Assembly: GCF_002355735.1 (NCBI RefSeq)
Contig: NZ_AP014879.1
Span: 1,426,001-1,490,000 of the forward strand
DNA length: 64,000 nucleotides
Direction: 5' to 3'
DNA from: Sulfuricaulis limicola
GTDB taxonomy: Bacteria; Pseudomonadota; Gammaproteobacteria; Acidiferrobacterales; Sulfurifustaceae
The notes under the pieces are model-generated. The model saw only the letters and a list, made by a program, of their open reading frames with translations. It was not told the DNA's origin and made no database searches. Position numbers and translations under genes: made by a program. How positions within the stretch are numbered: the stretch's first letter is position 1; every line of letters begins with the position of its first letter. Shown in pieces: positions 47,698-57,637 of the stretch.

Positions 47698-47830
47698 CCG
47701 GCCGAGACAGGAAATGCCACTATTTCATCAGGTTATGAACACATCATCACAAGGTTCGTTATCTGTGGGTTTGTCTGGCCCGACTGACGGGTGCAGACTA
47801 AATTTAAGGGACACCCGGAAAGGGTGAGTT

Positions 47831-47929
47831 ATGCGCGCCTATACAAGAAAATCAGGTGCGGCATCAGAAGGAAACAGCGTCTCACCACGTGTCCGGAACG
47901 CACGGGCAAGTACGCCATCAGGGGTGTAA
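47831..47929 (+). CDS. Possible 32-residue leader-like ORF upstream of rpfG
   Basis: ATG at 47831, preceded by AGGGTGAG, runs to TAA at 47929, three bases before the rpfG ATG. The peptide is basic and Ser-rich (MRAYTRKSGAASEGNSVSPR). It may be a translated leader that couples to rpfG or chance. The 235-base spacer 47698-47932 has no other feature I recognise. Confidence 0.22.
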   Translation: MRAYTRKSGAASEGNSVSPRVRNARASTPSGV

Positions 47930-47932
47930 CCG

Positions 47933-48985
47933 ATGTCCTCCATATTGATCATTGACGATCAGTTCACGAGCCGGAAGATTCTGGAACAGCTCGTGTCCAC
48001 CCTCAGCGGACATATCGAGGCAAAATCGTTCGCCGACCCGGTACAGGGGCTGGAATGGGCCGGGACCCATCATCCCGATCTGGTGCTGACCGATTACAAG
48101 ATGCCGAACATGGACGGCATCGAATTCACCCGGAAGTTCCGCGAGATACATCCCGACACCCCGCTGGTCGTCGTCACCGCCCTTGAAGAAAAGGAAATAC
48201 GCTACCAGGCGCTGGAAGCCGGTGCCACGGATTTCCTGACCAAGCCGATCGATCACACCGAATGCCGCGCACGCTGCCGTAACCTCCTCCTGCTCAGTCA
48301 CCATCAGCGACTGATCAAGGACCGGGCGCACCTGCTGGAATTGAGAGTCAGCGAAGCCACGAAGGAAATCCGCATCCGCGAACAGGAAACCCTGCTGCGC
48401 CTGGCCAAAGCCGGCGAATATCGCGACGAGGAAACCGGCAACCACGTTTTGCGCATGGCCAAGTTCGCGCGCCTCATGGCCGAAAAACTGGGTTTACCGG
48501 AAAGCGATTGTCACGTCATCGAGATCGCCGCGCCCATGCACGACATCGGCAAGATCGGCATTCCCGACGGAATCCTGCTCAAACCAGGAAAGCTCGACGC
48601 GGAAGAACTGCAGATCATGCGCACGCATACGCGCATCGGTTATGAAATCCTGAAGGACAGTCCTTCAAAATATCTGCAGATGGGCGCGGTCATCGCCCTG
48701 GGGCATCACGAGCGCTACGACGGCACCGGTTATCCCAGCCGGCTGCGCGGATACGAGATACCGCTCGAGGCCCGTATCGTTGCCGTTTCCGACGTTTTTG
48801 ACGCGTTGACATCCGTCCGGCCGTACAAAAAGGCCTGGTCGATACAGGACGCGCTCAACTACCTGAATACCGAAAGAGGAAAGCACTTCGACCCTGTCTG
48901 CGTCGACGCCTTCCTGGCGCAATTCGAAAAAATCCTCAGCTTCCGCGAGAAATTCCTCGATCTGCCCGCCGCGGATAATGGCTAG
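47933..48985 (+). CDS. rpfG: Response regulator with HD-GYP domain (RpfG)
   Basis: A 350-residue cyclic di-GMP phosphodiesterase. The receiver domain has D54 in LVLTDYKMPNMDG as the phosphorylation site and a Thr/Lys pair in VVVTALEE and FLTKPID. The HD-GYP domain has HD at 203-204 (APMHDIGKIGIPDG), HHERYDGTGYP at 258-268, and the surrounding ligands. Phosphorylated by the RpfC sensor in response to DSF, it degrades c-di-GMP to GMP or pGpG. It is followed after 5 bases by the GGDEF gene and then rpfC, so synthesis and breakdown of c-di-GMP are encoded together. Confidence 0.95.
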   Translation: MSSILIIDDQFTSRKILEQLVSTLSGHIEAKSFADPVQGLEWAGTHHPDLVLTDYKMPNMDGIEFTRKFREIHPDTPLVVVTALEEKEIRYQALEAGATDFLTKPIDHTECRARCRNLLLLSHHQRLIKDRAHLLELRVSEATKEIRIREQETLLRLAKAGEYRDEETGNHVLRMAKFARLMAEKLGLPESDCHVIEIAAPMHDIGKIGIPDGILLKPGKLDAEELQIMRTHTRIGYEILKDSPSKYLQMGAVIALGHHERYDGTGYPSRLRGYEIPLEARIVAVSDVFDALTSVRPYKKAWSIQDALNYLNTERGKHFDPVCVDAFLAQFEKILSFREKFLDLPAADNG

Positions 48986-48990
48986 CCCGC

Positions 48991-50136
48991 ATGGACTCCG
49001 AAACCACAGTCACAGAAGTTCATCGCGGCTTGTTCGCTACTCTTCGCGAACGCCTGGCCAAGCGTTCCGACAGCGAGCATATACAGGCGCTGGTACGGAT
49101 CGCCATCGGCAGCATCGGAACAATGTATGTTTTTTTCATCTACGCCAGCGGGAAACTCAGCGTAAGCCAGCAGCACATACTTTTTATCGCGACTTGTTTT
49201 GTTCTGGCCGCCATCGGCATTTTTCTGCTGGTCATCATTCAACCGGAAGCATCGCCACCCAGGCGACTTGCAGGGATGGTGCTCGATTTCAGCGCCACAT
49301 CTTATTTCATGTACGTAATGGAGGACATGGGATTTGTCTTCTTCGCGGTTTACCTGTGGGTCACCATTGGCAATGGTTTACGTTATGGAGCCCGCTACCT
49401 CTTCATGGCCATGACCGCCAGCATCGCAAGTTTTTCGATTGTTCTAGCCAATAGTTCATACTGGAGGGAGCAATGGGGGTTCAGCGCAGGGTTGCTGGTC
49501 GGCTTGGTCGGCCTGCCGCTTTATTTATCCAGCCTCCTGAAACAACTCGGCAAACAACACGATGAGCTCAAGAAACTCTATGAGCAAATGGCCAGACATG
49601 CGACCCATGACTCGTTGACGAACCTGCCCAATCGCAAACACTTCCACGATCAGCTTGCGGTAACTATCGCATCAGCCAAGCAGGAAAAACAAACTTTCAC
49701 GGTTTTGTATCTTGACCTCGACGGGTTCAAGGCCATTAACGATGATTTGGGTCACGCAATCGGTGATCAGCTGATAGAGAAAACTGCACGCAGGCTGGAG
49801 CATTGCGTACGCAAAGGCGACATGGTTGCACGTGTGGGCGGCGACGAGTTCATTGTGTTATTGCAGGATGTGGTGTCGTCGGATGTCTCAAAAATAGCCG
49901 AAAAAATCATCGAAAACCTGTCCAAACCATTAATGCTCGCTGACAGGTCTCTTTCCATTACTACAAGCATCGGGGTCGCAACATACCCCCATGACGGAGT
50001 CGACATAAATGCGCTAATACACAGCGCCGACATTGCCATGTATGAAGCCAAGCGTAACGGCAAAAACGGTTATCGGATTTTCAGCCGCGGACAAGTCCAT
50101 TTCGCGCCGCTTAACGTCAAAGGCCTGTCAGGCTAG
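48991..50136 (+). CDS. Diguanylate cyclase with RpfC-like membrane sensor
   Basis: A 381-residue GGDEF protein. Residues 1-185 hold about five membrane helices and closely resemble the N-terminus of RpfC (LRERLAKRSDSEHIQALVRIAIG, RRLAGMVLDFSATSYFMYV, YLWVTIGNGLRYGARYL, GLLVGLVGLPLYLSSLLKQL). The cyclase domain begins at about 203 (ATHDSLTNLPNRKHF) with GGDEF at 283-287 and an I-site RKGD at 274-277. This suggests a DSF-responsive cyclase opposing RpfG. It lies between rpfG and rpfC with gaps of 5 and 6 bases, an operon of three. Confidence 0.93.
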   Translation: MDSETTVTEVHRGLFATLRERLAKRSDSEHIQALVRIAIGSIGTMYVFFIYASGKLSVSQQHILFIATCFVLAAIGIFLLVIIQPEASPPRRLAGMVLDFSATSYFMYVMEDMGFVFFAVYLWVTIGNGLRYGARYLFMAMTASIASFSIVLANSSYWREQWGFSAGLLVGLVGLPLYLSSLLKQLGKQHDELKKLYEQMARHATHDSLTNLPNRKHFHDQLAVTIASAKQEKQTFTVLYLDLDGFKAINDDLGHAIGDQLIEKTARRLEHCVRKGDMVARVGGDEFIVLLQDVVSSDVSKIAEKIIENLSKPLMLADRSLSITTSIGVATYPHDGVDINALIHSADIAMYEAKRNGKNGYRIFSRGQVHFAPLNVKGLSG

Positions 50137-50142
50137 AGCCTT

Positions 50143-52716
50143 ATGGACACAAATACTCACCCTGCATCGCCCAGGCGTTCAATCTTCGCGGGGCTGCGCG
50201 AAAAACTTGCCCAACGCCCTGACAGTGAACACGAACAAGCGCTGATACGCTTGGTCATAGCGGTAATTATTGTTGGCTACTTCTTTTTATCCGCCATTTT
50301 GGATGGGGAAATCACCCCGGACGAGCATCCGGCTTTATCGCTGTCTGTCCTGGTTTTATTGTTTTCAGTTGGGATTATTTCCTGGATTTTTATCAATCTG
50401 AAAAAGTCTGTTGCACGCCGCATAGTGGGGATGATGACCGACCTGTGCGCAACTGCATACTGCATGTACATAGGCGGTGAAGCCGGCACACCGGTTTTTG
50501 CCGTGTTGCTTTGGGTTACGTTTGGAAATGGTTTTCGCTTTGGCGAGAAATATCTCTACGGAGCCATGGTGATAAGCGTCATCGGTTTCCTGTCGGTATT
50601 GGTTACGAGCGACTATTGGGCCAACCATCGAACTTTGGGGGTAGGCCTGTTGATCGCATTGATAGTTCTTCCTCTGTATGTCGCAACTCTGGTGCGACAA
50701 CTCCATGCCGCGCTCGCGCGCGCCAAGGATGCCAGCCAGGCTAAAAGCCAATTCCTGGCCAACATGAGCCACGAGATACGAACACCGTTGAACGGCGTCA
50801 TTGGCATGAGTCATCTGCTGATGGGAACTCCCTTGCATCAGGAACAGAAGGACTACGCGCAGACCATCCATGCCTCGGCGCGTACGCTCCTGACCCTGAT
50901 CGAGGACATTCTGGATATTTCCAAGATCGAGGCCGGCAAGGTCACGCTGGAGACGACGGACTTCGACCTGCACGGACTCGTACACAGTATCGCCATGATG
51001 CTGGCGCCGCAGGCCCAGACCAAGGGCCTCAGCTTTTCCGTTCGTATCGACCCGGAAACGCCCTTTCTCCTGCGCGGCGACCCGGTACACATGCGCCAGG
51101 TGCTTATCAACCTCGTCGGCAACGCCATTAAATTTACCGAAAAAGGCGGAATCGAGATCAGCGTCAAGCTTGTCAGCGAGGAACCTGCCGACGCTACCAT
51201 CAAGTTTGAGGTTACCGATACCGGCATCGGCATCGCCCCGGAAGCGCAGGCACGGATTTTTGAAAGCTTCACCCAGGCCGATACTTCCACCACGCGCCGT
51301 TTCGGCGGCACGGGGCTCGGCACCACCATTGCCAAACAACTGGTGGAATTGATGAAAGGCCGGATCGGGCTGCAAAGCACGCCCGGTGTCGGCTCGACAT
51401 TCTGGTGCGAGATCAAGTTTGCAAAACAGGCGCTGGCAGCGCAGTTACTGGCCGACACGGAGAAGCTGGTCGATACCCGTGTGCTCATGATTTCTTCCGG
51501 CACCGGCAACCGCTCACTCGTGCTGGGATTCCTGAAAATCTGGGAAGTCGAACTGTCCATGGCGGAGAATGCCGCGCAGGCTTTCGCTTTGCTGGTAAAT
51601 GCCGCGCATAGCGGCCGCCCGTTCCATACCGTGCTGGTGGATCAGGAACATCTCGACATGTACCCCCTGCAATTCATCGTCGCCGCCCGTTCCGAGCCGA
51701 CCCTGTCCGATCTTTCCCTGGTTCTCATCCGCCAACAGAACGATAACAAAGTCTCGGACGAGTACTTGAAGGCGGGCTACTCCTATGTCCTGGAAAGCCC
51801 GGTGGAGAAAAGACTGTTGTTCAACGCCCTGCATGCCAGCACCACGGCGCAACAATCCGACCATGAAGACGTGGTCTGGCTGAATGACCGCTACAAGCGG
51901 CATGCGGGCATACGGCAGTCCGGCCTCAAGATACTGGTCGCCGAAGACAATGCCATCAACCAGAAGGTCATCAGCAAAATCCTCGAGAGTGCGGGCCACC
52001 GCCCTATTCTCGTGGCAAACGGCGAACAGGCTCTGGATGCGCTGTCGCGGGAATCGTTCGACCTGGTGATACTGGACATGCAGATGCCGGTCGTCAGCGG
52101 CCTGGAAGTGGTAAAAATCCACCGTTTCACCGGACCCAAGGACTCGACCGTGCGTTTCCTGATTCTCACGGCAAATGCCACGACCGAGGCCATGAACGAA
52201 TGCCGCGAGGCCGGCGCCGATGCCTTCCTGACGAAGCCGATCGAACCCGCGAAATTGCTCGATCAGATCGATCGTCTCGCGCCCAAGGGCGCGGTAGCCA
52301 AAAGTCGGGGCAAGATGGCTATGAATACTCCCGAGACGTCCGCCGTTTCCATTCCATCGGATCACGTGCTGAACGATGCCACACTCGCCAGTCTTGAAAT
52401 CATGGGAAAACGCTCTTCCTTCATACCCGAACTCATACATGGTTTTCTCCATGACACGGAAGGATTGCTGGAGAACATGGAAAAGGCCATACGGGCGAAA
52501 CGCTACGAGGACTTCAAGGACCTCGCGCACGCCATGAAGGGCAGCGCCGGCAGCGTGGGTGCACAGTCGCTCTACGACATCTGTTCAGGAATATCCGGCA
52601 TCTCGGACGAGACACTGGGCAAGAAATCCTCTGCGCTGATGCATGACCTGGTCACGCAGTACGAATCGGCGCGTTACGAGCTGCTGGCTTATCTCGAGCG
52701 ACGCGCGGCCGGTTAA
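50143..52716 (+). CDS. rpfC: Hybrid sensor histidine kinase RpfC (DSF sensor)
   Basis: An 857-residue hybrid kinase. Five membrane helices (about 35-185) with the RpfC pattern [39 protein letters not shown] and [18 protein letters not shown]; HisKA with H210 in [20 protein letters not shown]; HATPase ([48 protein letters not shown]); a receiver domain with the Asp near 646 ([15 protein letters not shown]); and a C-terminal HPt with H796 in [14 protein letters not shown]. It senses DSF, then relays phosphate to RpfG and in Xanthomonas also controls RpfF. It meets the convergent rpfF with a 9-base gap. Confidence 0.95.
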
Positions 52717-52725
52717 CCAACCGAC

Positions 52726-53619
52726 TCAGGCAAGCTGTTGTTCCTCGACGACAGGTCGCAGAATCGCCAGCTTCTCCTGGGTCCGAGCAATCCGTTCCAT
52801 CACCCGCAGATCCCGTTCGCCGAGCTGTAACGCCGAATCAACCCAGATGGTGACAATGCGCATCAGCTCATCGTAGCTGATGGGATGATAGGTCCGTCGG
52901 ACCTTGTGGACGGCTTCATGGCCAATATGCGCGCGGTTGTACTTTTTCATATAGGCATATACGGCCTCTTCCCCCTGATCGTTTTCGGCCAGCACGTCCA
53001 CCACACCCATCTCGTAGAGCTCCTCGGCGGAATACATACGTCCGCTCAGGATCATGCGCTCGGCACGCGCCGGGTCGAGTTTGCGCGCCAGCAGGCTGTA
53101 AGCACCCATCCCGGGGAAAAGATTGAAAAGAATTTCCGGCAGCCCCATCTGCGCCCGACGCTCGGCGATCAGAACCCGGCTGGTCAGCGCACCTTCAAAG
53201 CCGCCGCCAAATGCATCGCCCTGCACCAGTGAGATCGTGGTAATCGGCAGATGATAACCCACGTGCAGCAAGTCAATGCAGGCCTTGGCATAACGAAAAA
53301 GTCCTTCACGATCGCCAGCGCGGATCAGCGTCAGGAACAACGCCAGATCGCCGCCGAGACTGAAAACACCGGGTATACGTGAAGCTACTACCAAAAACCG
53401 CAGTCCACTGCGCTTGCCATGTTCGGTCTCATGTCTCACGCACTGCTCAATACTGCGGTGGAAATGTTCCAGCTCGGAAATGAGCTCAGGTGTGTAACAG
53501 GGACGAGAGGCTGGTCGCATATAGCACCAAGCCGCCCGCTGCTCGGCATCATAACGCGTGACCAGCTCGCGGTAATGTCCCTGCGGGAAACACCCCTGCG
53601 CTTGTTGCTTGCCGTCCAT
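52726..53619 (-). CDS. rpfF: DSF synthase RpfF (enoyl-CoA hydratase/thioesterase family)
   Basis: A 297-residue crotonase-fold enzyme that makes the cis-2-unsaturated fatty acid signal DSF from a 3-hydroxyacyl-ACP by dehydration and thioester cleavage. Glu142 (GDAFGGGFEGAL) and Glu162 (LPEILFNLFPGMGAYSLLARKL) correspond to the catalytic pair Glu141/Glu161 of Xanthomonas RpfF, and FPGMGAYS is the RpfF signature that ordinary enoyl-CoA hydratases lack. ATG at 53619 has a GGGGCGGTG-type site; an upstream ATG at 53667 has none. It is convergent with rpfC. A KS-ACP-radical SAM unit lies immediately upstream on the same strand. Confidence 0.95.
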   Translation of the reverse strand: MDGKQQAQGCFPQGHYRELVTRYDAEQRAAWCYMRPASRPCYTPELISELEHFHRSIEQCVRHETEHGKRSGLRFLVVASRIPGVFSLGGDLALFLTLIRAGDREGLFRYAKACIDLLHVGYHLPITTISLVQGDAFGGGFEGALTSRVLIAERRAQMGLPEILFNLFPGMGAYSLLARKLDPARAERMILSGRMYSAEELYEMGVVDVLAENDQGEEAVYAYMKKYNRAHIGHEAVHKVRRTYHPISYDELMRIVTIWVDSALQLGERDLRVMERIARTQEKLAILRPVVEEQQLA

Positions 53620-53836
53620 TTTCACCGCCCCTTTTCGGTTGCAAGCCTGCTTTTCAGTCAGATGCATGGCGACTGGTGCGACCTAGTATCACTGCCCCAA
53701 AACGAAAAAACAAGCGGCCCCGTTTTTGCATTGCGTAACAGCATTTGCTTCCGCGGCCTTCCGGCGGCGTACATAAACGTAATTCTTCCAGATATCTCTG
53801 GTCATGGCCGAAATGCCACAATCCAGACAAGAACCC

Positions 53837-55201
53837 TCAACTGAATCGCCGCATCGCCACGGCCGCGTTGTGACCGCCGAAGGCAAAGGATTGTGTTAAA
53901 CCCACCTGTGGATCGAAGCGTTCAACGCGGCGCACGAAGTTGAGATCGAGCAAGGGTGTGTCAAGGTTTTTGCAGATGTGCGTCTTGCCATCACGCAGGG
54001 TCAACGCCGTGACCAGCGCCTCGAATGCCCCGCTGGCGCCAATGGTATGCCCCAGGATCGACTTGGTTGAATTGACGCGCACCGATTTTCCGAACACGCG
54101 CTCGATGACGCCAGCCTCGATTTCGTCGTTGTTCCGGGTACCGGTACCGTGGGCATTCACGTAATCGACGACGTCGGGTGACACACCGGCATCCGACAGT
54201 GTGGAGCGAATCATGCGTTCGATTTGTTTTCCTCCGGGCGCAAGACTCATCATGGAATGGGCGTCAAAAGTCTCGGAGAAGCCGATTACTTCCGCCATGA
54301 TTGGCGCACCACGTCGTTGGGCGTGCTCCAGTTCTTCGAGCACCAGCGACGCCGCTCCGCCCTGGCTGAACAGGAACCCCGAACGTTTTTCGTCAAATGG
54401 CCGGTTTGCGGTTTGTGGATCGGCGAATTCGCGTACCAGGGTCCCCGAGACGTCGAAACTCCGGAAGATATGGCCATGTTCATCGGCGAAATATTCACAG
54501 CCTCCGCTGACAGCGACATCGACGCGACCGTCTCTTACCGCCCGGAAAGCATTGCCTACAGCCACGGTGCCCGAGGCGCAGGCGAGGCAACAGGTTTGAT
54601 TCGGTCCCGTCAGGCTGTATTTGATCCCGATCGCCGCGGCGGGCGCGTTCGGCATCACCATGGACACCTCGAAGGGATTGAAGCGCGTTCCGTGGGTCAT
54701 CTGCGCGATTACACCATCCAGTACAGTATGGTCCTCCATGCCTTTGTGTTCATCGGTATAGGCTGCTAAAGCAGCGCGTGACTTGCGGAACAGATGATGT
54801 GTGTGATTCTGCAGGAAGGTGATCGCCCCACCGAGCCCGGTGCCAAAAAAGACGCCGGTCCGTGCGCTGTCGGCTCCGGACAATACGAAATTGCGTGAAC
54901 GTTCGCCGGCCGGCACAAGGGAAAATCCGGCGCGTCCGATAGCCTCGCGTGCAGCACCGAGGGCGAGCATGGCTACCGGGTCGAGCTGTAACCGTTCGGC
55001 ACGTGCTACACCCAGGGACTCTGGATCAAGCTCAGGCAGCGGCGCCCAAATACGAGAATGCAGTTCGGAGTGATATGGCCAGCTTGCCGGAACAGGCACA
55101 ACCGCCGATGCTCCACTCAGGCACCGGGACCAGAACACGTCCACGTCACTGCCAAGGGAGCTGACGACGCCGGCCCCCGTGATCACTACCCGCCGGTTCA
55201 T
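53837..55201 (-). CDS. Beta-ketoacyl-ACP synthase (FabF-like)
   Basis: A 454-residue condensing enzyme of the KAS II type, about 40 residues longer than FabF. The active-site Cys is 208 (CLACASGTVAVGNAF) and the two His are in VDYVNAHGTGTRNNDE and SILGHTIGASGAFEAL; FGGHNAAVAMRRF closes the protein. It elongates an acyl-ACP with malonyl-ACP in the decarboxylative Claisen reaction. It overlaps the ACP gene by four bases. No other fatty acid synthase genes are nearby, so it is probably a specialised rather than housekeeping enzyme. The gene ends 218 bases from rpfF. Confidence 0.92.
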   Translation of the reverse strand: MNRRVVITGAGVVSSLGSDVDVFWSRCLSGASAVVPVPASWPYHSELHSRIWAPLPELDPESLGVARAERLQLDPVAMLALGAAREAIGRAGFSLVPAGERSRNFVLSGADSARTGVFFGTGLGGAITFLQNHTHHLFRKSRAALAAYTDEHKGMEDHTVLDGVIAQMTHGTRFNPFEVSMVMPNAPAAAIGIKYSLTGPNQTCCLACASGTVAVGNAFRAVRDGRVDVAVSGGCEYFADEHGHIFRSFDVSGTLVREFADPQTANRPFDEKRSGFLFSQGGAASLVLEELEHAQRRGAPIMAEVIGFSETFDAHSMMSLAPGGKQIERMIRSTLSDAGVSPDVVDYVNAHGTGTRNNDEIEAGVIERVFGKSVRVNSTKSILGHTIGASGAFEALVTALTLRDGKTHICKNLDTPLLDLNFVRRVERFDPQVGLTQSFAFGGHNAAVAMRRFS

Positions 55202-55452
55202 GCGGAAGCGGTTTCTTGGAGTTTCCTGTCTATGAAGGAGACGATGTCCTTGACGGTGACAAGCCCCGTCACCTCTTCCGGTGGCAGGCTGTGTTCAAAC
55301 TCGTCTTCCAGGGCAATGAACAACGTCATTTGCTGGAGGGAGTCCAGCTGTAGGTCGTCACGGAGCGATAATTCCGGCTGAATTTCGGTTTCTTTCCGAT
55401 TCAATACTTCAGAAAAAACCTTGAATACTCGCTGCTGCACATTGACGTTCAT
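55198..55452 (-). CDS. Acyl carrier protein
   Basis: An 84-residue ACP. Ser38 in DDLQLDSLQQMTLFIALEDEF is the 4'-phosphopantetheine site (DSL motif). Acidic helices II and III follow (LPPEEVTGLVTVKDIVSFIDRKLQE). It overlaps the ketoacyl synthase gene by four bases, so carrier and synthase are made in step. The sequence differs from the FabF-partner ACP (no GADSLDTVE), which supports a dedicated pathway. Confidence 0.93.
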   Translation of the reverse strand: MNVNVQQRVFKVFSEVLNRKETEIQPELSLRDDLQLDSLQQMTLFIALEDEFEHSLPPEEVTGLVTVKDIVSFIDRKLQETASA

Positions 55453-55526
55453 AGATATATCACCCGAGCGGTTTTAAAATGAATGAAAATCCTGATGCTC
55501 CAGCACCGTCCATGGTGTCCGTAATT

Positions 55527-57053
55527 TTAAATTGTGGCCGGCGCACTATGCACCTTGATGCGCCAATCCGCCCGGCGGTTCAGCTCGTCGTCATGGACAG
55601 AAAGCCGGAGGCTTGCCGGCAGCGGCGCATAATCGATGTCGTAGGCTTGTTGGCGCAGGGCGGAATAATCAGTCATGCTGTCTATTTTCAGCCTGTCGTA
55701 GCCTCCGGCCATGGGGTGTCTGCGCAGGCCTGCCGTGTAGCGGCAGAACGTGGCGAAACGCAGGTCGTCGTCAGGCAGATTCTTGTCTTTCAGCAGGAAA
55801 CCGTAGTAGTTGACGTAGCTGTGGTACAACAGGTCTTCCAGCTGTTTGCGCGGCAGTTTCGGGTGTGACCACGTATAGCAACTTCCATCGAACCGGTCGA
55901 GGTTTTTTTCCGCGATCATGCCGGTCGCCAGGAAATCGTCGTATTGTTCGGTACCGGGAATGGGGGTGAGAATATAAAAGGACACAACTCTCGGGCGCAG
56001 TGTTTTCAGCACATCAACGTGATGCCGGATCTCCTCCTCGTCGTCTTCAGGAAATCCGATGATGTTGGAAAAATGCGGGCGGATGCCGGCTATGTTGCAC
56101 AGCCGGACGATTTCAGCATAACTTTTCGGATGGTTATGGTGTTTACCTGCCGCCTTGAGTGTTTTGCGGTTGAAGGACTCGACACCCACGAACATCTCGT
56201 AACAACGCGCGCGGCCGAGCAACTCCACCAGTTCCGGATCTTTTGCGATCTGGGTGTCACACTGGCAATAGAATGGCAGATCGATATTTTCTTCAATCAT
56301 GGCTCTCAACAATTCCCGTACCTGCGGGAATTTGTTGAAGTTGTCCGACACGAACTTGATGATCTTCACGCCGGCATGTTTTGCCCGCCGCAGGCTTTCG
56401 AGGGTGCTCTCGATGTCGGGATTTCGCACTTGCCTGCCCGAGATCTTGATGACAGAGCAGAAATTACAACGGTATGGACAACCCCGCACAGGATAAAGCC
56501 CCAATACCGGAGCTCCATACCTTGCCAGATCAGCCTGGCTCGGAGGATTGATCACGATGTTCGGCAGCTCGTCCGCCCAGCGTCGGCCAGCGCCATACAC
56601 GGGTTGCAATTCCCCCGCCACGGCATCTTCCAGAATTTCCTGCCAGATCAGCTCCGCCTCGGCCAAGGCAAAACTCACGCCGCGCCCCTGTAACGAAGTG
56701 GTATCACAGGTCATGGGATGCGGTCCGCCGATGACGCAATGACGCACGCCGTGGTGACGGGCGTAAGCCGCCAAGTCGAGTGCGCGGTGAAACTGGTGGG
56801 ACTGGACGCCGACCAGCGCCAGCAGGGTGATCACATCCGGGTCATGGTGCAGCCAGCGCAGGTAACTCAAATCCTGCCACACATACTCATCCACGGTGAT
56901 AACTTCGATCGCTGCCTTGCCGACGCGCCCGGGGGTCAGGCTGGCGATGTGCCACAAAGTGGCATTGGGCATGTAGCCCTTTTTGAAGCGCTCGACGGAT
57001 CCATCCACGCTGTACTTGCTGGGCTTGATCAACACCACTCGAAGCTGCGCCAT
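55527..57053 (-). CDS. B12-binding-type radical SAM enzyme
   Basis: A 508-residue radical SAM protein. The CxxxCxxC cluster is C192, C196, C199 (LYPVRGCPYRCNFCSV), with the GE-like, SAM-binding and beta-strand motifs KFVSDNFNKFP, FVGVESFNRKTLKAAGK and FSNIIGFPEDDEEEIRHHVD. The N-terminal about 140 residues (VITLLALVGVQSHQFHRALDLA, HCVIGGPHPM) look like the cobalamin-binding domain of this class. The substrate is unknown. It lies 74 bases before the ACP, suggesting an acyl chain bound to the ACP as substrate. ATG at 57053 with GGGAG upstream. Confidence 0.9.
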   Translation of the reverse strand: MAQLRVVLIKPSKYSVDGSVERFKKGYMPNATLWHIASLTPGRVGKAAIEVITVDEYVWQDLSYLRWLHHDPDVITLLALVGVQSHQFHRALDLAAYARHHGVRHCVIGGPHPMTCDTTSLQGRGVSFALAEAELIWQEILEDAVAGELQPVYGAGRRWADELPNIVINPPSQADLARYGAPVLGLYPVRGCPYRCNFCSVIKISGRQVRNPDIESTLESLRRAKHAGVKIIKFVSDNFNKFPQVRELLRAMIEENIDLPFYCQCDTQIAKDPELVELLGRARCYEMFVGVESFNRKTLKAAGKHHNHPKSYAEIVRLCNIAGIRPHFSNIIGFPEDDEEEIRHHVDVLKTLRPRVVSFYILTPIPGTEQYDDFLATGMIAEKNLDRFDGSCYTWSHPKLPRKQLEDLLYHSYVNYYGFLLKDKNLPDDDLRFATFCRYTAGLRRHPMAGGYDRLKIDSMTDYSALRQQAYDIDYAPLPASLRLSVHDDELNRRADWRIKVHSAPATI

Positions 57054-57419
57054 GGTACTCCCTGTTGTAAGTATCTGGTCCTGCCTCCCGGGCCTCCCCA
57101 AGCCCAGACGAACTCTAGCCATCCAATGGCGTTACAACTCTGATCCGTGTCAATTTTTTCGCTTCGAGTCCTCAGATAATGCTCGACTCTTCCTTGAGTT
57201 GCAAGAAAGAAAGCGCCGGAGCCATGAATCGGAGGCGCTGGCCGGAGCCCCGAGTTGCCTGGCCGACAAACCTTGGTAAATGAATGGAAATAAAAAATGC
57301 AAAAAAGATCGCTATTTCGGCTTGATAGCTTTCGTCCAGCCCTCCGCCGCGCAAAAGAAAGGGTTGTTGGAGACAGGTTCCAGCCGAGACTCAGTACCGG
57401 GAGATGTTCATCGGGTATT

Positions 57420-57605
57420 CTTGCCGGACCCAATCCATGATGCGGCAGGCGATGCGTATAAGAGGTGTAATTTCGCCCACCGCCACAAGTCGTACCGCCC
57501 TGCGCCGGGCATGCCGGACACGACGCCGCTTTTCATAATCCTGCGCGATGGAGTAAGCGCACGGCGGTTGACGGTTTCGGAAAGCGAGACAACGCGCCCC
57601 GACCG
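57420..57605 (-). pseudogene. Decayed copy of the cheB 3' end
   Basis: The spacer 57054-57637 holds a remnant of CheB in shifting frames. VVSLSETVNRRAL resembles VRVFEGEPVNRHRP; after a deletion AYSIAQDYEK matches GAYTIAQDEK; then, in a shifted frame, KSGVVSGMPGAG matches KSCVVFGMPEQA; then back in the first frame AVRLVAVGEITPLIRIACRIMDWVRQ lines up with AIRLGGACQVAPLERMADYITAWSQ. At least two frameshifts and one deletion. It is a partial tandem duplication of the neighbouring gene or a relic of a former cheB-like gene. Confidence 0.6.
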
Positions 57606-57637
57606 TTCGTCGCGGCAATTGCAAAACGAACCTGTAA

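Follow-up and report, generated by a model that had tools for sequence, protein, structure and literature searches.

What is the task of an acyl carrier protein (ACP), a ketosynthase (KS), and a radical S-adenosylmethionine enzyme (rSAM) that are encoded directly upstream of an RpfF-type synthase of the diffusible signal factor (DSF) family? This question is raised by a 64,000-nucleotide stretch of the genome of the sulfur-oxidizing bacterium Sulfuricaulis limicola (NZ_AP014879.1, positions 1,426,001 to 1,490,000), referred to here as the window. Sequence comparison gives good support to the view that the rSAM-ACP-KS trio serves the DSF system. Beyond that, with a chance we put slightly above even, the trio is a signal-customizing module of this system, and a modified DSF-family acid is made through RpfF. 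Coordinates and Pfam families agree with the initial annotation that the genes for RpfF, the KS, the ACP, and the rSAM lie on one strand, those of the ACP and KS sharing a 4-base overlap. Its description of the neighborhood was correct for these four genes, but the adjoining rpfG, GGDEF, and rpfC genes had gone unmentioned. These are convergent with rpfF, so that a full rpf locus is present in the window, with the sensor pair RpfC/RpfG (assigned by Pfam) linked to the synthase.

A neighborhood survey of the trio with and without rpfF had been set beforehand as a test, in which a trio often met without rpfF would have told against the tie to DSF. The outcome favors functional coupling: the rSAM and the KS subfamily are both rare and keep company with rpf genes. 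Nine genomes have the rSAM, eight named ones from a scan of 84,980 species and that of the window; distant matches in the phylum (at most 185 bits) were not counted as orthologues, and a tblastn search of plasmids with the rSAM returned distant matches only, all below 60% identity. Among 60 relatives, the rSAM orthologue is limited to the genus of the window, and an RpfF-type protein is encoded in 19. Members of the KS subfamily are encoded by 5 of 57 genomes in the order and, across the phylum, by 1 of 398. All five KS-bearing relatives encode RpfF (hypergeometric probability, 0.002, calculated over genomes that are not independent). Because the open reading frame (ORF) calls include antisense ORFs in places, such as at the gene for the genome's FabF, unlabeled neighbors were not interpreted.

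Every rSAM locus with enough flanking sequence has rpfF, rpfC, or rpfG, or a gene for an RpfC-like kinase, and the arrangement differs between genomes. The order rSAM-ACP-KS-rpfF, convergent with rpfC-rpfG, is found in L088 (genome G007) and L090 (G001), while rSAM-ACP-KS-rpfG-rpfC is convergent with rpfF in L089 and rSAM-ACP-KS-rpfG runs to a contig end in L093. In L091, rpfF is divergent from ACP-KS-rpfC-rSAM, and in L092 (G461), the rSAM adjoins the gene for an RpfC-like kinase. The contig ends inside the rSAM gene in L094 (G003) and L095. The trio might instead make a separate lipid that bypasses RpfF and is sensed alongside DSF by RpfC or an RpfC-like kinase, as the placement of the rSAM after rpfC rather than rpfF in L091 would allow, and as would the genome OFTM106, where the rSAM is separate from the rpfF/ACP-KS locus and adjoins genes for an RpfC-like kinase and a fatty acid desaturase. 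We consider this unlikely: the window and five of the eight named genomes with the rSAM encode RpfF, contig ends cut the locus in the remaining three, and the trio is without a thioesterase of its own, a role that RpfF could fill.

Two further observations concern G461. At L092:11720-16240, in this gammaproteobacterial metagenome-assembled genome, the rSAM orthologue is followed by genes for an RpfC-like kinase, a LuxR-type regulator, and a fatty acid desaturase, possibly a second lipid-sensing locus. On a contig other than that of the rSAM, an RpfF-dioxygenase fusion is divergent from ACP-KS. This protein (L127:7870-9828; G461:C60) carries a TauD-type 2-oxoglutarate dioxygenase domain C-terminal to an RpfF-type domain, has a Rieske oxygenase gene nearby, and may be another sign of the chemical decoration of DSF-type signals.

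It is improbable that the KS and ACP alone serve RpfF by setting chain length while the rSAM has a separate role. Such a division is suggested by G025, where rpfC-KS-ACP is divergent from rpfF and no rSAM orthologue is present, and by G024 and G033, where a different KS-ACP subfamily adjoins rpfC, again with no rSAM; against it, the rSAM is fixed directly upstream of the ACP in three lineages, and the identities of the trio proteins match each other. ACP-KS pairs of other subfamilies (38 to 40% identical to the window KS) adjoin rpfC in other Acidiferrobacterales (L074:12216-13711, L075:7988-9483, and L067:7009-9834), which suggests that rpf loci recruited ACP-KS more than once. In G023 (L073:9056-10333), a KS adjoining rpfF has neither the active-site Cys nor the first His and resembles a chain length factor.

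The levels of identity point to movement of the trio. Between the window and L089, a locus labeled betaproteobacterial, the rSAM (75%), KS (71%), and ACP (63%) are far better conserved than RpfF (43%), RpfC (40%), and RpfG (50%). Within the genus, between the window and G001, the values lie closer to each other (rSAM, 73%; KS, 75%; ACP, 64%; RpfF, 69%; RpfC, 70%; RpfG, 85%), and the gap seen with L089 is therefore not simply due to faster evolution of RpfF. RpfG is 85 to 88% identical in G007 and G001. These comparisons are read most simply as movement of the trio, which would have been inserted at an rpf locus on more than one occasion. We suggest tentatively, with a chance somewhat below even, that the trio is a transferable module whose dedicated carrier, condensing enzyme, and rSAM make a chemically new DSF-family signal, with a branch or ring put in by radical chemistry, and that different bacteria have plugged it into unrelated rpf loci to gain a private signal dialect.

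The trio and the full rpf locus also behave as one block. Their gene order is kept in G007 and G001, whereas in G005, a gene for a dynamin-like protein directly adjoins cheB, the whole seven-gene block being missing together. In G003, one end of the block is at the edge of one contig and the other end at that of a second, which accounts for the lack of rpfF and KS there, and in G002, G004, and G006, other genes stand between cheB and the dynamin-like side. That the trio and the rpf genes are chance neighbors, to which the gap and possible promoter ahead of rpfF (see below) would lend some color, is thus scarcely credible, since unrelated genomes combine the two in three or more ways and the block is lost as a whole. 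The site from the dynamin-like gene to cheB (window 47698-57637; L144:4430-4513) is variable in the genus, with the rpf and trio block, nothing, or other genes; the last include those for a GGDEF protein and for SelD-like and permease-like proteins, the latter two named from a reading of their sequences.

Features of the rpf locus and the adjoining trio in the window
Feature	Position	Strand	Evidence
RpfG-like response regulator (REC plus HD-GYP-type HD domain)	47933..48985	+	Pfam Response_reg, 97 bits; HD_5, 131 bits
Diguanylate cyclase (RpfH-like input plus GGDEF)	48991..50136	+	GGDEF, 171 bits
RpfC-like hybrid histidine kinase (hydrophobic input region, HisKA, HATPase, REC, Hpt)	50143..52716	+	Pfam, translation
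RpfF-type DSF synthase	52726..53619 (longer ORF starts at 53667)	-	ECH_1, 84.8 bits; NCBIfam NF006452, 361 bits
Divergent FabF-like ketosynthase (KS)	53837..55201	-	Pfam ketoacyl-synt N and C, 106/97 bits
Dedicated acyl carrier protein (ACP), phosphopantetheine serine (DSL)	55198..55452	-	PP-binding, 42.3 bits
Radical SAM enzyme (rSAM), N-terminal alpha/beta domain	55527..57053	-	Pfam Radical_SAM, 73.5 bits

The window RpfF, a member of the crotonase family, keeps the equivalents of G86, G138, E141, and E161 of Xanthomonas RpfF (residue list from PMC9040811), as found by alignment with 3m6m and a motif check, and its nearest solved structures are the RpfF-type proteins 7zq7 and 3m6m. Its score exceeds the cutoff of the broad NCBIfam family PRK08788/NF006452 (361 versus 177 bits) and falls below that of the strict RpfF equivalog (223 versus 550 bits), so the protein was filed as RpfF type and not as the Xanthomonas equivalog. 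Translation more likely starts at the ATG at 53619, which is preceded by the Shine-Dalgarno-like GGGGCGGTGAAA and kept in G007 and G001, than at the ATG at 53667, which is not conserved in these genomes. The start at 53619 leaves a gap of about 217 bp between the KS gene and rpfF. Within this gap lies a conserved block, CAGTNATACTAG, a possible promoter from which rpfF may be transcribed separately. The tie between the trio and the DSF system proposed at first thus takes the form of linkage to rpf genes, in layouts of several unrelated kinds, rather than of demonstrated cotranscription with rpfF.

In the KS, the Cys-His-His/Lys catalytic motifs are intact (ACAS, NAHGTGT, and STKSILGH). It scores below the NCBIfam fabF equivalog cutoff (317 versus 494 bits) and, over the matched part only, has about 37% identity to the FabF encoded in the same genome. 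Early in its second third, the KS has some 30 extra residues, an insertion that is kept across the KS subfamily and is not present in that FabF; the predicted KS model has a mean pLDDT (predicted local distance difference test score) of 35.4. The phosphopantetheine serine of the ACP (Ser-Leu) is conserved in its homologues.

The CxxxCxxC motif of the rSAM (C192/C196/C199) is conserved in all homologues. Its predicted model (mean pLDDT, 61.7) has five alternating strands and helices at the N terminus, followed by a barrel, and over residues 1 to 450 matches the folds of AprD4 (Z score, 21.5), TsrM (19.0), MgmA (18.4), CysS (17.7), and OxsB (16.9), an overall shape that is common to AprD4, MiaB, and RimO too. 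An N-terminal Rossmann-type domain with a radical SAM barrel is the layout of class 1 cobalamin-type enzymes (PMC13331322), and the rSAM likely uses cobalamin, as judged from this fold. The earlier label "B12 type" rests on architecture, a cobalamin-type fold match of the predicted model over both domains, and not on the Pfam B12-binding score, which at 16.7 bits is below the cutoff of 32.1. One protein in the whole genome exceeds that cutoff, with a reading frame of 1,243 residues that fits a cobalamin-dependent methionine synthase, a name inferred from its size. CysS, a radical SAM enzyme of the cobalamin type, methylates an unactivated carbon of a substrate bound to pantetheine (PMC12846815), which supports the favored route to a modified acid through RpfF. 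Because the best single fold match, AprD4, is titled a diol dehydratase, dehydration, desaturation, and ring formation are kept open alongside methylation as possible chemistries of the rSAM.

The best NCBIfam matches of the rSAM, all below cutoffs, include HpnJ and a ladderane-type family, and radical SAM enzymes, like ACP-KS pairs, are typical of lipid-tailoring pathways. The product of the trio could therefore be a lipid or metabolite unrelated to signaling, for example, a component of the membrane or outer membrane, that is regulated by DSF and hence travels with rpf. The trio is not accompanied by any gene for a transferase, a glycosyltransferase, a transporter, or export, however, and its constant partners are synthase and sensor genes, which makes such a product rather improbable.

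RpfF converts 3-hydroxyacyl-ACP to cis-2-enoyl-ACP, which it then hydrolyzes as a thioesterase (PMC4542539; PMC5941067); a neighboring ACP-KS pair is therefore a plausible supplier. Beside the observed genes, motifs, rarity, and repeated rpf linkage, we infer a flow of substrate, a modification, and a ligand of RpfC, which for a signal-customizing trio would be as follows. The KS would elongate an acyl chain on the dedicated ACP, separately from the fatty acid synthesis that serves membranes, and the rSAM would perform a difficult C-H modification of the carrier-bound chain, with C-methylation to give a branch as the leading guess and ring formation or desaturation as alternatives. The 3-keto group would be reduced by the housekeeping FabG, and RpfF would turn the 3-hydroxyacyl-ACP by dehydration into cis-2-enoyl-ACP, which it would hydrolyze to free a modified DSF-family acid. 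The coencoded RpfC would sense this acid and pass the signal on to RpfG (cyclic di-GMP).

Several points weigh against a trio that customizes the signal. It comes with no genes for a ketoreductase, a dehydratase, or an enoyl reductase, and between KS and rpfF lies a candidate promoter from which rpfF may be transcribed on its own. Cobalamin binding by the rSAM is suggested by a predicted fold that the Pfam B12-binding score does not match. In G018, ACP-KS lies on an 8.4-kb contig with no rpf genes on the readable side, rpfF being elsewhere. Most RpfF loci in the order are without the trio, so that DSF can generally be made in its absence. Finally, the RpfF tree neither backs nor rejects a grouping of the window and L089 RpfF proteins (approximately unbiased [AU] test, P = 0.405), so that separate recruitment rests on the levels of identity.

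In the open-licence literature, we found no account of rpfF combined with an ACP, a ketoacyl enzyme, and a radical SAM enzyme, and judged by title and abstract, none of the open-licence papers mentioning radical SAM and DSF deals with this combination. If the favored model is true, no earlier case of a radical SAM step in the making of a DSF-type quorum signal is known to us. Sulfuricaulis limicola HA5, with a published genome of 2,864,672 bases in one contig (PMC5024460), is a cultured type strain, so the model is testable there.

Of the known enzymes, the class 1 cobalamin-dependent radical SAM enzymes (TsrM, OxsB, and TokK) and CysS appear to share their domain layout with the window rSAM, with a full-length match to its predicted fold, and the CysS and TokK structures contain pantetheine-linked substrates; they differ from it in sequence (10 to 18% identity), and the acyl chain substrate of the window rSAM is putative. 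FabF (KAS II) has the family and the catalytic motifs in common with the window KS and is set apart from it by the low identity and the insertion. Among signaling systems, the closest parallel is the Xanthomonas rpf/DSF system (rpfB-rpfF convergent with rpfC-rpfH-rpfG), with which the window shares the RpfF catalytic residues, the domain makeup of RpfC and RpfG, convergent rpfF and rpfC, and an RpfH-like input protein (PMC8357829). In the window, however, no rpfB adjoins rpfF; the ACP, KS, and rSAM genes are upstream of it instead, and the RpfH-like input forms one protein with a GGDEF domain. The N-terminal region of this GGDEF protein (window 48991-50136) resembles the input region of RpfC (about 40% identity by tblastn), and the G001 locus is without the GGDEF gene. 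The Xanthomonas DSF precursor comes from general fatty acid synthesis, its branch from leucine, valine, or isoleucine (PMC4542539). FabG2 of Xanthomonas, a long-chain 3-oxoacyl-ACP reductase for DSF precursors (PMC5941067), is likewise a step of fatty acid synthesis partly devoted to DSF, but it is a reductase, not a KS-ACP pair, and its lone gene is far from other fatty acid genes. In the usual account, the supply of general fatty acid synthesis to RpfF determines the DSF signals; a dedicated, mobile module for supply and modification, if the model proposed for the window is true, would put signal structure under separate genetic control.

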